Shown here piece by piece: positions 37,500 through 43,939 of a stretch of DNA of 64,000 bases. The stretch is taken from contig NZ_JAKIKW010000027.1 in NCBI RefSeq assembly GCF_023283945.1, forward strand, positions 1 to 64,000. Direction: 5' to 3'. This DNA comes from Shewanella gelidimarina (GTDB taxonomy: Bacteria; Pseudomonadota; Gammaproteobacteria; Enterobacterales; Shewanellaceae). Positions within the stretch are counted from its first letter, which is position 1. Each line of letters opens with the position of its first letter. The notes under the pieces were generated by a model, which saw nothing but the letters and a program-made list of their open reading frames with translations, was not told the DNA's origin and ran no database searches. Both the position numbers and the translations under genes were made by a program.

Positions 37500-38099
37500 C
37501 TAATCAATATTTTTCCCCATTAAAAATGCCAGTTCCGCGACATTGCTGACCTGCATTTTTTGCATGACTTTTTGGCGATGTAACTCTAGAGTACGTTGGG
37601 CAACGTTAAGTTCAGCAGCAATGACTTTATTCAGTTTTCCTTCCAACACCTTTTCCATCACTTCTTGTTCTCGTGGAGTTAGTGTTGCGAGCTTATTAGC
37701 TAACGCTTGCCGTGTCGCTTTACGGAGCATGTTTTGTTCCGTCTGTGCGCTCGCTTGTTCGAGCAGTAACACCAGCTTGTCACCGTCAACCGGTTTTTCT
37801 AAAAAATCGAGCGCGCCTTTTTGAATGGCTTGTACTGCCATAGCAATATTGCCGTGACCGCTTAACATAATAACGGTAATAGGACTGCCGGCCTTTGTCA
37901 TATGATTCAATAACGCGCTGCCATCCATTCCTGGCATTTGTACATCTAAAATCGCGATAGCGCTTTGTTGCAGATCGACTGTTTGCAGAAAACTATCTGC
38001 TGATAAAAAACCTTTTGGTTGATAACCCAGCCCGGTTAGCATCCAGGTTAATGAATCCAATACAGCCTGATCGTCGTCGACAAGGTACAGGTTATTCAC
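37500..38099 (-). CDS. FixJ/TtrR-like response regulator
   Basis: The 199-residue regulator has an N-terminal receiver domain (acidic pair VDDD, phospho-acceptor Asp in ILDVQMPG, Lys in EKPVDGD) and a C-terminal LuxR-type helix-turn-helix (LTPREQEVMEKVLEGKLNKVIAAELNVAQRTLELHRQKVMQKM). It starts at a GTG at 38099 with AAGGAGG upstream and overlaps the sensor kinase gene by 8 bases, so the pair is translated together. The layout matches TtrR/ThsR regulators that answer tetrathionate or thiosulfate, but the signal here is unknown. The palindrome TTGCGG-N4-CCGCAA found in two nearby promoters is its likely binding site (inference). Confidence 0.9.
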   Translation of the reverse strand: MNNLYLVDDDQAVLDSLTWMLTGLGYQPKGFLSADSFLQTVDLQQSAIAILDVQMPGMDGSALLNHMTKAGSPITVIMLSGHGNIAMAVQAIQKGALDFLEKPVDGDKLVLLLEQASAQTEQNMLRKATRQALANKLATLTPREQEVMEKVLEGKLNKVIAAELNVAQRTLELHRQKVMQKMQVSNVAELAFLMGKNID

Positions 38100-39873
38100 T
38101 AGAAGCCTCCTTCGTGGGTAAGATTATCGTTATGGTTAAACCAGACGCTCTATTATCTGTCTCTTTATCAGTATTATTGTGTGCTTTAATCTCGCCATGG
38201 TGCTCTTCAATGATGCGCTTACAGATTATCATGCCAAGGCCTAAGCCATTTTCTTTTGATGTCTCAAAGGGGAAGAACAAACGTTCTAAGGCGCTCTCTG
38301 TGAGCCCGCTGCCCTTATCTTTGAAATCAATTTGTGCATACTGCTCGTTTTTAGTCAGTGAAATAACCAATTGGGGTGAACTGACACCTTCCATTGCGTC
38401 CAATGCATTGCGGATAATATTAACAAAAACTTGCTGTAGCAGACTCGGATCGGCATTGAGAGAGACTTGCTCTGCATTTAACTCTGGAACAATCTGCATC
38501 CTGCCAAACTCTGCAGCCATTAAGCTTAAAGTTTCATCCAAGATCTGATTGAGACTGCAATGGTTCATGACACTGGGCTGTTGGCAGAAATGCCTAAATC
38601 GTTTAATGGTCGATTGCGCTCGATCGACCTGCTGTATCGCCTTTGTCATCGCTTCTTTTAAATCGACTTGTTCATCGGATAAACGATAAATACAGCCCTG
38701 TGTTAAATAGCGGATCCCCGCTAAGGGTTGGGTTAACTCATGGGCGATACCTGATGCCATCTCTCCGGTTAACAGTACTCGCTGAGCCTTGTAGAATTGT
38801 TTTGTCTGTTCTAATAGCGCTTTTTGGGTTTGAGTATGCAGCTGAGTTTCAGCTTGTAGATCTTGGGTGCGTAAAACCACCAGACGTTTTACCCGCAAAT
38901 GGTGGATATAACCCAACAAAAGTAAAATGGCTGCAAAACATGCCCAGGGTAGTGCGCTTTTAAATATCGAGGTCCAGTTGGTGACAAATGGCCATCGCTG
39001 TAACTGTTTTAATAATTTAAACACCTCACTATCATTGACGGTCGCTGACCATGAATCATAACGGCCTTGAATTGCCGCGGAGTCTTCGGCATGGATCGAT
39101 AGTAAGGAGCGAATGACATTGGTTGCTAAGCGGTGATCTGTTTTACCCAATTTTGAAAAAGAGTAGTAAGGATACAGCTCGCTTGAGCGTTGGCAGTTAA
39201 AACCAGAGGTTTGCTTAGGTAGAACAACATGTAAGCTATCGGGATCTATCTCACCGTTACTGATAGCGTTCTCAAGGACGCAGGTCGGTAAAATGGCGAT
39301 ATCGGCTTCGCCGTTAACAACTAATTTAAGTAATTTTTTCTGTGGGAACCCAACAAACTTAAGTTGCTTAAAGTCACTGAAAGGGTTGAGGCCGTTATGG
39401 GCCATCTCTCCGGCAAAAATTTGAAAGCCACCAAACGCTTGTTTATCACTTGAGACTGCATTCAGCTGTTTTAAATCGTTAAAGCTAGTGACCTCTAGGT
39501 TCGAACGAGTAATTAATGCCGAGCCAACGGAGTAGTTTGGATCTTTGTTACCTAAAGGAATGAGTGTCAGTATGCTACTACTGCCAAAATCCTTCTTGTA
39601 GCTCACCCCTGTTAAGGCATTGGTGATTAAGAAATCTAACTTGCCTTCGGCAACGCTACGATCAAGTTGACTGGGCGTTAAGGCCATCAGTTTAAAGGAC
39701 TTATTGAGGTCTTGTTCTAACTTATCTATCGTTGGCTGCCAACGTTGCTTGACCTTATCAGGATGCGTGAAGGTCAATACACCGACACGAACCGGTTCGG
39801 TATTATCGGCGTAGCTACAATATGAAAGCACGATAGTACTTAAGATGATGAGTTTGCGAAGCTTGGCTATCAT
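38092..39873 (-). CDS. Sensor histidine kinase with PhnD-like periplasmic domain (TtrS/ThsS-like)
   Basis: The kinase has 593 residues. An N-terminal signal or anchor (about 7-22) is followed by a periplasmic PhnD-type solute-binding domain (about 25-290; VRVGVLTF, KLDFLITNA, GEADIAILPTCVLE). A membrane helix lies at about 302-326, then a short coiled linker, an H-box with H378 in GIAHELTQPLAG, and an HATPase domain (NIIRNALDAM, DKGSGL, GLGLGM). Two periplasmic cysteines, C198 and C227, could form a redox-sensitive pair. The same domain order occurs in tetrathionate sensor TtrS and thiosulfate sensor ThsS. No tetrathionate or thiosulfate reductase gene is nearby; the neighbours are an ApbE gene, an FMN lipoprotein gene and a porin gene. 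Confidence 0.92.
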   Translation of the reverse strand: MIAKLRKLIILSTIVLSYCSYADNTEPVRVGVLTFTHPDKVKQRWQPTIDKLEQDLNKSFKLMALTPSQLDRSVAEGKLDFLITNALTGVSYKKDFGSSSILTLIPLGNKDPNYSVGSALITRSNLEVTSFNDLKQLNAVSSDKQAFGGFQIFAGEMAHNGLNPFSDFKQLKFVGFPQKKLLKLVVNGEADIAILPTCVLENAISNGEIDPDSLHVVLPKQTSGFNCQRSSELYPYYSFSKLGKTDHRLATNVIRSLLSIHAEDSAAIQGRYDSWSATVNDSEVFKLLKQLQRWPFVTNWTSIFKSALPWACFAAILLLLGYIHHLRVKRLVVLRTQDLQAETQLHTQTQKALLEQTKQFYKAQRVLLTGEMASGIAHELTQPLAGIRYLTQGCIYRLSDEQVDLKEAMTKAIQQVDRAQSTIKRFRHFCQQPSVMNHCSLNQILDETLSLMAAEFGRMQIVPELNAEQVSLNADPSLLQQVFVNIIRNALDAMEGVSSPQLVISLTKNEQYAQIDFKDKGSGLTESALERLFFPFETSKENGLGLGMIICKRIIEEHHGEIKAHNNTDKETDNRASGLTITIILPTKEASSE

Positions 39874-39975
39874 TATTTAGTTCAACAAAGAGACACCTGA
39901 GTATTATGACGCCATTATCATAAAATGTACTTATAAACAGCGACACGAAGAGAAATAAATCACAGTCTCCTCTAT

Positions 39976-39993
39976 ATTGCGGAAAACCACTAC
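39976..39993. promoter_or_regulatory. Imperfect copy of the TTGCGG palindrome upstream of the sensor kinase
   Basis: TTGCGGAAAACCACTA (39977-39992) matches 14 of 16 bases of the reverse complement of the perfect palindrome at 41392-41409. It lies about 105 bases before the kinase start in the 230-base gap after apbE. It suggests autoregulation of the two-component operon. A TTATTT-like -10 lies at roughly the right distance on the minus strand, but weakly. Confidence 0.55.
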
Positions 39994-40103
39994 AGCATTC
40001 CTAAAAAATCTCATTTATAATAAATGAGCGGTGTGCCTTTATTTTAATAAACGTCACCGCCTAAAGTTAGATGGTAGTAAATTATTATTTGGTTAACGTT
40101 AGT

Positions 40104-41276
40104 CTAAAATGATTTTTTGTATCTATTAAACTTCTCAGATTCCACTTTATCTCCTTGTACATTCAAATACCAAACGGCTTCTACATCTTTATTTTTATTA
40201 GCATAGGCAAGTGCTTCTTTTAAAGGCATTAGGAATAGAGCAGTAGAAATAACATCCGCGAAAAGTTGGTTGTTATTTACCACTATCGTTGTCGATATTC
40301 CAGTACTTTTTGGATACAGTGTTTTTGGGTTGATAATGTGATGATACTCTTTACCTTTTACTCGGTAGTAACGTAAATAATTTCCACTTGAGACGATGGC
40401 TAAATCTTTACCTGTCACCACTTCATGATATTGGCCTTCAAAGCTCTGGCACTGTTCGAGTGTATTATTGTATTTTTTGCAAATGGGATTCTCGACCGCA
40501 GTGGTAAAATTTCGGCCCTCGGGGTGAACGCCGTAATGCCGTATATTACCTCCGGCATTTATCATGAAGTTCTCAACACCATCTGCTTTTAACTGCCTAT
40601 AAACCATTTCAGCCATCCAGCCTTTCGCGATCCCACCAAGGTCGATACTCATGCCCGCTTTCATCTGTATGGTGTTGTTGGTTAGATCTAAGTCTATGTC
40701 TTTAATATTAATCAATAGCTTAGCCTGCGCTAACTCGGCCTCCGTCGGAATGCTGCAACGGTCTTGTAGCTTACGTTCACCTTTACATTTGGCCCGATAC
40801 CCGCGCCAGATATCGATGACAGGCGATAGGGCGATGTTAAAGTAACCATGGGTTTTATCATGCCAATCAATACTCGCCTGGATCAGTTCCGTCAACTTTG
40901 GGTCAATTTTATGTTTTTTATCAGGTTGATTATTGATGCTTTTAATATTGGTGACATGGGGGTAAGTACTGTAGTTTGATGCTAGGTAATGATATTCCTG
41001 AATAACATGTAGTGCGTTGCAGAATGCACTGTTTATATCTTTATCGTTATTATCATATATATCAATACTAATGGATGTGCCAAAATATTTAAGGGTGGTG
41101 AGATTACTGCTAACAGCATTATTAGTGATTAATGCATTCCCTTCACACCGATAAGGTTCTCCCTTAGTGTCGACTTTAATAATATTAAAGTCTGGCGCTA
41201 CTGGTTGTGTAATGACATTCGCATAGTTATAACTAGAAAGAAATAATAGCGTTAATATAGGAAGTGATATTTTCAC
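40104..41276 (-). CDS. apbE: Secreted ApbE-like FAD:protein FMN transferase
   Basis: ApbE enzymes attach FMN covalently to Thr or Ser of FMN-binding domains outside the cytoplasm. The 390-residue protein has a signal peptide (ISLPILTLLFLSSYNYA) but no lipobox, so it should be periplasmic and soluble rather than a lipoprotein. Family blocks are TKYFG-like LKYFGTSISIDIYD, DLGGIAKGWMAEMVYRQL, INAGGNIRHYG, SSGNYLRYYRVKGKEYHHIINPKT and the Mg-binding FADVISTALFLMP. Seven cysteines in the mature part, several in inserted loops (RAKCKGERKLQDRC, ICKKYNNTLEQC), are unusual and suggest disulfides. It is divergent from the gene of its probable substrate, the FMN lipoprotein. Confidence 0.9.
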   Translation of the reverse strand: MKISLPILTLLFLSSYNYANVITQPVAPDFNIIKVDTKGEPYRCEGNALITNNAVSSNLTTLKYFGTSISIDIYDNNDKDINSAFCNALHVIQEYHYLASNYSTYPHVTNIKSINNQPDKKHKIDPKLTELIQASIDWHDKTHGYFNIALSPVIDIWRGYRAKCKGERKLQDRCSIPTEAELAQAKLLINIKDIDLDLTNNTIQMKAGMSIDLGGIAKGWMAEMVYRQLKADGVENFMINAGGNIRHYGVHPEGRNFTTAVENPICKKYNNTLEQCQSFEGQYHEVVTGKDLAIVSSGNYLRYYRVKGKEYHHIINPKTLYPKSTGISTTIVVNNNQLFADVISTALFLMPLKEALAYANKNKDVEAVWYLNVQGDKVESEKFNRYKKSF

Positions 41277-41391
41277 AAAATGGCCTAGGCATGTTGGTTA
41301 GCTTTAATAAGTATCATAACAAGTAAGTAAAAATGAAAAAATTATTTTATTTATGTTAACCCGATCAAATAAATAAACATCAACTCATCAC

Positions 41392-41409
41392 ATTGCGGTT
41401 TTCCGCAAT
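41392..41409. promoter_or_regulatory. Perfect palindrome in the apbE/FMN-lipoprotein divergent promoter
   Basis: ATTGCGGTTTTCCGCAAT is an 18-bp perfect inverted repeat (7-bp arms, 4-base centre). Its centre is about 41 bases before the start point predicted from the TATATT -10 at 41429-41434, and it covers the -35 position. That is the usual place for an activator. The TtrR-like response regulator encoded nearby is the likely binder. Confidence 0.7.
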
Positions 41410-41428
41410 TGTGTAGAATTTTAAAACT

Positions 41429-41434
41429 TATATT
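41429..41434 (+). promoter_or_regulatory. Candidate -10 element of the FMN-lipoprotein/porin operon
   Basis: TATATT lies 39 bases before the lipoprotein ATG. The bases at -35 (CAATTG) do not resemble a sigma-70 -35 hexamer and overlap the palindrome, as expected for an activator-dependent promoter. Confidence 0.45.
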
Positions 41435-41472
41435 CTGGCCACAATGAAATAACACTTCTAAAGGCTGACAGA

Positions 41473-42816
41473 ATGAAAAGCTTAAACATCTTTAATAAAA
41501 CATTAGTAAGCAGCGCTGTACTACTCGCCACTATGACGCTTGCAGGTTGTGCTGGCAGCGTGGATCACGGCAAATACGCCGATGGCGTTCATGATGTATC
41601 TGCTAAAGGTAAGAAAAGTCTTATTACCTTAACCGTGGAGGTTAAGAACGGTAATATTGTTGATATTAAAACAAAATCCCAAAAAGAAACGGAATCTCTC
41701 TATCTCAATGCAGAGCGTTTATTAGCGAAAGTTGTCGCGAATAACGGCCATGAAGGCATTGATGCCGTTTCCGGAGCGACTTACTCTTCTAACGGGATCT
41801 TAAAAGCCATTAACAGCCTTCCGAGAGCGGACGGTAGTCAGCCTGAATATGTTGCTGTCGGTTCTAAAGAAGAATCTGCAGACGATAATTTTAACCTTAA
41901 ATGGTCTATTCAGCCTCAATTGGGTTTATTGAAAGGGGATTATTACTTCCAAGAAGCCCGCTTTCGTCAAGGTCATATGGGCAGTGTTGCTATCGTCACT
42001 GAGAGCAATAATGCTGATAATGTGATTTTTGCCGAATTTAATGAGAGTGGTCGCCCAAATTACTACACTCGTCTTTACCAAAATGTGCCTAAGCGCATGT
42101 CTGAATACAACTTCTCTATGGGTAAAAAGAAAGGGACTGCTTGGGTACAGTCTGCGTTGACCATGGAAAAGCTCATGGTAGAGCAGGACAAGTTAACCTT
42201 CGAGCTTAATCCCGATTTTGATCCTGCTTTAGGCAATAAGTTAAAAGAGCCGAATCGATTAAAATATGCCGGTATCGATATTGTTGCGGGTGCCTCTAAC
42301 AGCGTTCAACAGTCTATGGTGCCGCTTACGGCTAAAATCCATGCGCAGATTAATGGTGAGGGCACAAATGAGCTGTTTTACCAGAACGCAGAAAAGTTAC
42401 TTGATGCAAAAGGCAAATGGACCGGTGTGACCGCCGTTTTACGCCTAGTGGTTAATCGCGACAGCAAGCAAATTACTAAAGCCCATTATGACGAAATCTT
42501 CGCTGATGAAAAGACTCAGATAAAAGATGCATCGTTAAAGAAATTTTACCGCCAGTCAAAATATGAATCGATTAACTATGTAGAACCCGCTCGTATTGGC
42601 TTTAACGTCATGTTCGATGCGTTAAATGTCCACCTTCAGCAAGGCGGCTCTCTATTCTCAATCAATGATTTACCAGCAACCGGTGATACCGGCAGCTATG
42701 CCGCAACGGGCTTTACCAAGCGCTCAGATTCTTGGGATATCTATTTACATCAAGCTGACATTTTGTATCGGCAGATGCGTCAAGACGGCGTGATCGTAGC
42801 ACACAATAAAATCTAA
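41473..42816 (+). CDS. FMN-binding (flavinylated) lipoprotein with repeated FMN_bind-like domains
   Basis: The 447-residue lipoprotein has lipobox L23-A-G-C26. The first domain (about 34-115) carries D97-AVSGAT-103, the ApbE flavinylation motif Dxx(S/T)GAT, with T103 as expected FMN acceptor. A second region (about 155-290) has the same rhythm (GHMGSVAIVTESN, NVIFAEFNESGRPNYYT) and ends in DIVAGAS (269-275), a near-match with Ser as possible acceptor. A third region (about 315-445) again shows WTGVTAVLRLVVNRDSKQI and YDE. Similar two-domain lipoproteins carry electrons in Listeria (PplA). No redox partner is fused. It heads an operon with the porin and faces apbE across a shared palindrome. 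Confidence 0.88.
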   Translation: MKSLNIFNKTLVSSAVLLATMTLAGCAGSVDHGKYADGVHDVSAKGKKSLITLTVEVKNGNIVDIKTKSQKETESLYLNAERLLAKVVANNGHEGIDAVSGATYSSNGILKAINSLPRADGSQPEYVAVGSKEESADDNFNLKWSIQPQLGLLKGDYYFQEARFRQGHMGSVAIVTESNNADNVIFAEFNESGRPNYYTRLYQNVPKRMSEYNFSMGKKKGTAWVQSALTMEKLMVEQDKLTFELNPDFDPALGNKLKEPNRLKYAGIDIVAGASNSVQQSMVPLTAKIHAQINGEGTNELFYQNAEKLLDAKGKWTGVTAVLRLVVNRDSKQITKAHYDEIFADEKTQIKDASLKKFYRQSKYESINYVEPARIGFNVMFDALNVHLQQGGSLFSINDLPATGDTGSYAATGFTKRSDSWDIYLHQADILYRQMRQDGVIVAHNKI

Positions 42817-42895
42817 ACTTGCGCTGAAAAGGCTCCTAACCGCCTTAGAGCAGGGGAGTCATCTTCGTTTTAAACCAATAATAATGTTAAGAGAT

Positions 42896-43939
42896 ATGAT
42901 GATGAAAACAGTTCAATTGACTTTACTTGCCGCGGCAATCCTAGCTTCACCCACTGTTATGGCTGACGCCTACAAATTTTATGGCCGTATCGATTACTCG
43001 ATTACAAACTCTGACAGTGGTAGTGCGACTCATAGCGGTAAAAGTGGCACCATTCTAGAAAACAACTGGAGTCGATTAGGCATTAAGGGTAATGCAGCGC
43101 TAAATGATGATTTTACGGTATTTTATCAAATCGAAGTGGGCGTAAATGGTGCCAGCGAAGGTAAGCAAAATAATCCATTTTCGGCGCGTCCTACATTCTT
43201 AGGGTTAAAGCATTCTACAGTCGGTCAACTTGCTGCAGGTCGTATGGATCCAGTATTTAAAATGGCTAAAGGTACCGCTGATGCAATGGACATGTATTCA
43301 CTAAAGCATGACCGTTTGTTTGCCGGTGATAAGCGTTGGGGTGATTCTCTAGAATATAAAACCGTTAAATGGAACAAATTACAATTTGGCGCCAGCTATA
43401 TTCTAGAAGATAACTATTACGCAGAAGACGATGTTCATCGTGATAACGGTAACTACCAAGTCGCAGTGACTTACGGTGACAAACTGTTTAAAAGCGGTGA
43501 TTTTTATCTCGCCGCTGCTTACACTGATGGTGTTGAAGACATCAAAGGTTTCCGCGCGGTTGCCCAGTATAAGTATGGTAACTTAAAACTCGGCTCTATC
43601 TACCAGAGTGCCAAAATCGTTAACCCTAACTTAGATAATTGGCAGCAACGTGATGGCGATGGTTTTATCATAAGTGCTAAGTATCAAATTGATAAACTCA
43701 CGTTAAAAGCGCAGTACGGTCAGGACGACTCGGGTACCGGTAAAATTGCCGGCCGAGTTTACGATCAATACGGCGCCGCGGCCACTGACGTACCAGAAGT
43801 GTCACAATGGGCCATTGGTGCCGAGTACCGTTTATCAAAGTCGACGCGAGTGCATACCGAGCTGGGTCAGTTTGATGTGAAACAATATTCTGATTTTGAT
43901 GACACCATTATGAGTGTTGGTTTTAGAATCGATTTCTAA
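42896..43939 (+). CDS. Outer-membrane general porin
   Basis: The protein has about 347 residues. The frame offers three adjacent ATG codons (42896, 42899, 42902), each next to a TAAGAG site; any gives a signal peptide ending TVMADA. The mature protein begins YKFYGRIDYSITN and ends in the aromatic VGFRIDF, the C-terminal signature for beta-barrel assembly. Alternating strands and a 16-strand porin length fit the OmpC-like Gram-negative porin group. It lies 80 bases after the FMN lipoprotein gene without a terminator, so it is probably co-induced with it to let the substrate of the system in. Confidence 0.88.
   Translation: MMMKTVQLTLLAAAILASPTVMADAYKFYGRIDYSITNSDSGSATHSGKSGTILENNWSRLGIKGNAALNDDFTVFYQIEVGVNGASEGKQNNPFSARPTFLGLKHSTVGQLAAGRMDPVFKMAKGTADAMDMYSLKHDRLFAGDKRWGDSLEYKTVKWNKLQFGASYILEDNYYAEDDVHRDNGNYQVAVTYGDKLFKSGDFYLAAAYTDGVEDIKGFRAVAQYKYGNLKLGSIYQSAKIVNPNLDNWQQRDGDGFIISAKYQIDKLTLKAQYGQDDSGTGKIAGRVYDQYGAAATDVPEVSQWAIGAEYRLSKSTRVHTELGQFDVKQYSDFDDTIMSVGFRIDF

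Follow-up and report, generated by a model that had tools for sequence, protein, structure and literature searches.

A conserved two-component-controlled flavin module in Shewanella, a candidate periplasmic respiratory device

We analysed a 64,000-nt stretch of the Shewanella gelidimarina genome (the window), in which five genes at 37500-43939 encode a two-component system, a secreted ApbE (flavin adenine dinucleotide (FAD):protein flavin mononucleotide (FMN) transferase), a predicted flavinylated lipoprotein and an outer-membrane porin. The module looks like an uncharacterised respiratory device for a small molecule. Our reading, held tentatively and at a little less than an even chance, is a substrate-induced periplasmic two-flavin respiration module, in which a duplicated and strongly conserved region making up two thirds of the lipoprotein (D2-D3) would be the terminal or substrate-docking unit. 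Two findings argue most strongly for D2-D3 as the active unit, namely how it is conserved and that no reductase is marked by the regulator box of the module. D2-D3 may be the "missing" terminal reductase. The features of the block are given below, with domains called by Pfam and sensor and regulator families by NCBIfam equivalog cut-offs.

37500..38099, minus strand: FixJ/TtrR-like response regulator (Response_reg and GerE; receiver and LuxR-type helix-turn-helix)
38092..39873, minus strand: TtrS-like histidine kinase with PhnD-type periplasmic sensor (Phosphonate-bd, 1.1e-25; HisKA; HATPase)
39977..39992, minus strand: regulator box TAGTGGTTTTCCGCAA, 103 bp upstream of the kinase start
40104..41276, minus strand: secreted ApbE (ApbE, 6e-67)
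41393..41408, plus strand: regulator box TTGCGGTTTTCCGCAA, between the divergent apbE and lipoprotein genes
41473..42816, plus strand: predicted flavinylated lipoprotein, 447 amino acids (FMN_bind, 7e-13, residues 46-115 only)
41569..41826, plus strand: lipoprotein D1, residues 33-118 (FMN_bind; predicted acceptor Thr103 in DAVSGAT, codon 41779-41781)
41914..42357, plus strand: lipoprotein D2, residues ~148-295 (no Pfam match; ApbE-like site DIVAGAS with Ser275, codon 42295-42297)
42358..42813, plus strand: lipoprotein D3, residues ~296-447 (probable repeat of D2, without acceptor motif)
42884..43939, plus strand: outer-membrane porin (Porin_4, 3e-39)

The lipoprotein has the lipobox LAGC at residues 23-26 with Ala/Ser at +2, and outer-membrane sorting is expected. 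The ApbE target motif DAVSGAT, recognized in the earlier note, was located at residues 97-103 within the FMN_bind domain of D1 (PF04205, 49.5 bits vs 22), which is closest in the PDB to domain 1 of the multi-flavin protein CbFMN4. FMN_bind is the sole domain found in the lipoprotein; the FAD-binding reductase domain of the fumarate/urocanate reductase type was not found. In a motif table of 84 rows (records partly redundant), D-x-[VI]-S-G-[AS]-T is present at D1 in all but two rows, with GST in Ferrimonas variants, and the D2 site D-x-[VI]-[AS]-GASNS in 84/84. The Shewanella and Ferrimonas D2 site, D-x-V-A-GAS, has one departure from the ApbE consensus, and the full motif is found at D2 in some Clostridia (DCVSGAS, DTVSGAS, D[LF]LTGAS). 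Ser275 in D2 is the probable second flavinylation site.

Residues 125-447 are the best conserved part of the lipoprotein, with many invariant polar residues in D2-D3. Compared with Clostridial (gut) lipoproteins, D2-D3 is 47-57% identical and D1 only 29-34%. Neither D2 nor D3 had a Pfam match, FMN_bind included; Foldseek returned only D1 matches and weak FMN_bind matches, and hhalign gave no significant alignment of D2 or D3 to FMN_bind. When more diverse sequences were included, a weak alignment between D2 and D3 appeared (hhalign probability 58.6%), and D3 is probably a repeat of D2. FMN-bind2 domains are known to occur as pairs (PMC11334425), and the weak mutual alignment fits this pairing without implying FMN-bind2 membership. 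Judged from sequence, the lipoprotein is more than the FMN_bind carrier of the earlier note, which overlooked the conserved duplicated region and its second ApbE-like site.

D2-D3 was also detected in a cytosolic-type setting. Five genomes of one Clostridial (Lachnospiraceae-type) family, four found besides the query genome in one search and one more in a further search, encode D2-D3 proteins without D1 and without an evident signal peptide, most of them carrying D[LF]LTGAS. D2-D3 adjoins genes for PyrK-like and PyrD-like proteins and for an ApbE with no evident signal peptide in four loci (L198:8619-12335, with DHO_dh at 124.7 bits in the PyrD-like protein; L199:7541-12046; L201:5821-9458; L206:6675-11314), and in two others (L200:6700-9222 and L207:3850-6408) it is fused to a PyrK-like part beside a PyrD-like gene, the ApbE-like gene being about 7 kb off. 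The PyrK-like label comes from a matching iron-sulfur domain in L200 and L201; the other loci were labelled by gene order. These clusters, which also have ABC transporter and two-component genes nearby, lend support to the second site in D2; the simplest reading is that D2-D3 would be an ApbE target, attached at Ser, and a partner of flavin/iron-sulfur oxidoreductases. A broader proposal, which we consider less likely than not, is that D2-D3 represents a new flavinylated oxidoreductase domain. In marine Gammaproteobacteria it would serve as a secreted terminal reductase with two flavins, controlled by its own sensor; in gut-type Clostridia it would be cytosolic, a partner of PyrD/PyrK-like proteins, and have a dedicated ApbE that is likewise cytosolic. 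The PyrDK/ApbE/D2-D3 cluster was not found described in the literature searched, mostly without subscription papers.

The full-length lipoprotein was detected at >=70% identity in 41/129 Shewanella genomes, with no intermediate homologue. The order and orientation regulator-kinase-ApbE-lipoprotein-porin is kept in 40/40 assessable Shewanella genomes, the window genome included (in the 41st carrier the locus runs into a contig end), and the neighbours of the module are quite different in about half of these 40 loci. The five-gene module, counted as six genes in the earlier note, is therefore not due to chance. In the Ferrimonas-type sister group at least two further gene orders occur; the regulator pair, ApbE and the lipoprotein are within 10 kb in 9/10 distinct loci, the tenth being cut by a contig end, and the porin in seven. 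Co-conservation across Shewanella and relatives, proposed earlier as a check, was thus observed for the whole module in Shewanella and for the linked core genes in Ferrimonas. The distance matrices of the five module genes correlate at 0.86-0.92, and about as well with that of a flanking gene, which indicates vertical co-inheritance and not more; the lipoprotein evolves slowest of the five. Homologue searches returned only the own genome among 369 Gammaproteobacteria, and only the query genome among 295 genomes of one Clostridial order.

Named carriers are marine species, among them S. abyssi, S. hanedai, S. benthica, S. colwelliana and several Ferrimonas. One record of the Ferrimonas-type group, L113, is labelled Marinobacter nauticus DP3N21-5, but its locus resembles that of Ferrimonas balearica and shares the flanks; mislabelling is the probable reason, or else a transfer. 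The module is also present in L106, labelled Shewanella xiamenensis JCM 16212; the other named carriers include no S. oneidensis-group species, and this record may be misnamed. One genome has its regulator gene interrupted by about 1.2 kb of extra sequence (L062:4139-5966) and another its kinase gene broken into two frames (L075:5672-7443), where the regulator has possibly decayed or been hit by an insertion.

A 16-bp dyad, TTGCGG-N4-CCGCAA / TAGTGG-N4-CCGCAA, was detected upstream of lipoprotein/apbE and of the ttrS-like kinase gene. A conserved-dyad search returned TGCGG-N4-CCGCA in 32/40 apbE/lipoprotein intergenic regions (shuffle maximum 7). At <=2 mismatches the box is present in 33/40 lipoprotein/apbE regions and 18/40 kinase-promoter regions, vs 0.15% and 0.4% in shuffles, respectively, and its position upstream of the lipoprotein is nearly constant in most other genomes. 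The 16-mer is identical in the Ferrimonas-type loci L110 and L113, at both the lipoprotein/apbE and kinase sites. The porin gene starts 67 bp after the lipoprotein gene, with neither a box nor a terminator-like site in the gap, and the kinase and regulator genes overlap by 8 bp; the copy TAGTGGTTTTCCGCAA upstream of the kinase suggests probable autoregulation. TTGCGGTTTTCCGCAA is the sole exact palindrome copy in the 5.03 Mb window genome, so by this box no second target, for example a distant reductase, is marked. No wider box-defined regulon emerged: at one mismatch, the reversed control pattern has more matches in this genome than the box.

The box layout is that of the published TtrR box of Vibrio parahaemolyticus, GTGG-N4-CCAC (PMC11293645), and of the boxes upstream of the thiosulfate-type (ATGTGGTTTACCACAA) and tetrathionate-type (TTGTGGATTTCCACAT) reductase genes of the window genome, with one half-site base changed (GCGG in the module vs GTGG). 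The module regulator probably uses this TtrR-type dyad with the changed base.

The curated families nearest to the module pair are TtrS for the kinase and FixJ/TtrR for the regulator, both far below cut-offs: 303.6 bits for tetrathio_HK (cut-off 750) and 189.7 bits for tetrathio_RR (cut-off 290), so the regulator is not the TtrR equivalog. The window genome encodes two more PhnD-type pairs, one adjoining ttrBCA-like and one adjoining phsABC/psr-like genes, the reductases being recognised from sequence features and the layout in PMC5408782. The sensor domains of these TtrS-/ThsS-type paralogues are 27-31% identical to that of the module kinase. The pocket loop TNPGQ, invariant in aligned TtrS/ThsS, is replaced in module kinases by [TGQ]N[AVS] followed by variable residues. 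By these features the module kinase is a third paralogue and very probably not a tetrathionate or thiosulfate sensor; the separate loci and the differing loop suggest that its ligand is probably another small anion. The three paralogous systems and their three distinguishable boxes, with GTGG or GCGG half-sites, are found at L178, L179 and the module.

The earlier note had proposed a periplasmic flavin redox device that is induced by a signal and comes with its porin. Its observation was right and its core interpretation is largely right, in view of the co-conservation and of the regulator-type dyad in the lipoprotein/apbE and ttrS-like promoters. Its assignment of the sensor to the tetrathionate/thiosulfate type is not supported.

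According to the two-flavin respiration reading, the PhnD-type kinase would sense a small periplasmic anion, and the regulator would bind the dedicated GYGG-N4-CCRC boxes and so activate apbE, lipoprotein-porin and the operon of the regulator itself. ApbE would load FMN on Thr103 of D1 and probably also on Ser275 of D2. The ApbE domain is clear (226.4 bits vs the Pfam gathering score of 25.6), and its Ser-His-Asp triad, counted on the translation, has the spacing 16 and 28 of Vibrio cholerae ApbE (S241-H257-D285; PMC12052999), that is, canonical spacing. Electrons would pass from a general periplasmic donor to D1 of the outer-membrane-anchored lipoprotein and further to D2-D3, acting as terminal reductase or substrate-docking electron-transfer unit, while the porin would admit the compound.

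Several observations weigh against this reading. In the Shewanella D2 site the fourth motif position is Ala, where D-x-x-[S/T]-G-A-[S/T] calls for Ser or Thr, and no electron donor gene is present in the block. A PDB sequence search with D2-D3 detected no solved homologue, and AlphaFold2 predicts three beta-beta-beta-alpha repeats with moderate confidence (predicted local distance difference test, pLDDT, 67 and 72), so that an active site cannot be shown. The conservation of D2-D3 could come from a protein partner and not from catalysis. Two Ferrimonas-type loci have no nearby porin, which is thus not strictly required.

The lipoprotein may instead be an electron relay only, a PplA-like flavin wire from periplasmic or inner-membrane donors to a constitutive reductase or extracellular acceptor encoded elsewhere, an explanation that we regard as possible but doubtful. 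D1 does resemble known carrier domains, and multi-FMN proteins have been proposed to move electrons over longer distances (PMC8238504, PMC11334425); D2-D3, however, is far more conserved than D1, and so many invariant polar residues are not usual in a simple relay. PplA of Gram-positive extracellular electron transfer is likewise a flavinylated lipoprotein with more than one FMN_bind-like unit, and its profile matches a Clostridial homologue of the module lipoprotein, but weakly (40.3 bits vs the cut-off of 325), and D2-D3 escapes Pfam FMN_bind. The multi-flavinylated FMN-bind1/FMN-bind2 proteins (PMC8238504, PMC11334425, PMC10339131) share the ApbE motif and paired units of ~150 residues (FMN-bind2), whereas the module lipoprotein combines one FMN-bind1-like domain with a strongly conserved pair having one acceptor-like Ser, and has its own two-component system and porin. 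PepSY-type flavinylation clusters (PMC8238504) also join periplasmic flavin proteins to ApbE, but the window block has neither DUF2271 nor a PepSY gene. In nine genomes (neighbourhoods inspected in seven: L065, L066, L067, L069, L071, L072, L075) a ~250-aa PepSY protein and a ~630-aa PepSY-ferredoxin-NAD reductase fusion adjoin the module, convergent to the porin, and this pair is a possible inner-membrane electron donor in that group. This favours a relay there; most module loci have no PepSY genes beside them, and the fusion occurs in at least seven genomes without the module. An obligate PepSY partner was rejected, as the pair adjoins the module in those nine genomes only and not in the window.

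It is very improbable that the module is an accessory of tetrathionate/thiosulfate utilisation under TtrSR/ThsSR-type control. TtrSR-ttrBCA and ThsSR-phsABC (PMC5408782, PMC11293645) resemble it in the PhnD-type kinase, the FixJ-like regulator, the GYGG-N4-CCRC box and the adjacent targets, but the predicted module targets are ApbE, a flavin lipoprotein and a porin and not a molybdoenzyme with its reductase operon. Both genuine systems are present elsewhere in the window genome with their reductases, and a sulfur-oxyanion sensor was rejected on the basis of these loci, the distinct loop and the distinct boxes. An envelope redox or metal role, for instance periplasmic ferric reduction or flavin-based repair, and not respiration of a soluble compound, also seems improbable: many flavinylated systems are tied to iron uptake (PMC8238504), but the block has no iron transporter, TonB receptor or Fur context, and control by an anion-type PhnD sensor does not fit.

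The genes flanking the block, some named from sequence only, encode DacB-like, DUF1904, phospholipase-D-like, DTW, pseudouridine-synthase-like and aminopeptidase-like products; as stated in the earlier note, no reductase or cytochrome is among them. A Rfam search gave no match. No description of the module was found in the literature searched, again mostly without subscription papers, so its novelty is provisional.

Taken together, the module is self-contained and testable: it has its own sensor with a defined DNA box, a single candidate redox protein and, in most cases, a porin. The box offers a direct reporter route to the inducer and hence to the substrate. The conserved D2-D3 pair has no Pfam entry and occurs together with ApbE in two cellular settings that differ greatly, which would widen the range of covalent flavin chemistry now known. 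If the broader proposal of a new oxidoreductase domain is true, the Shewanella D2-D3 would be a one-protein respiratory reductase, with no cytochrome or molybdoenzyme needed in the operon.

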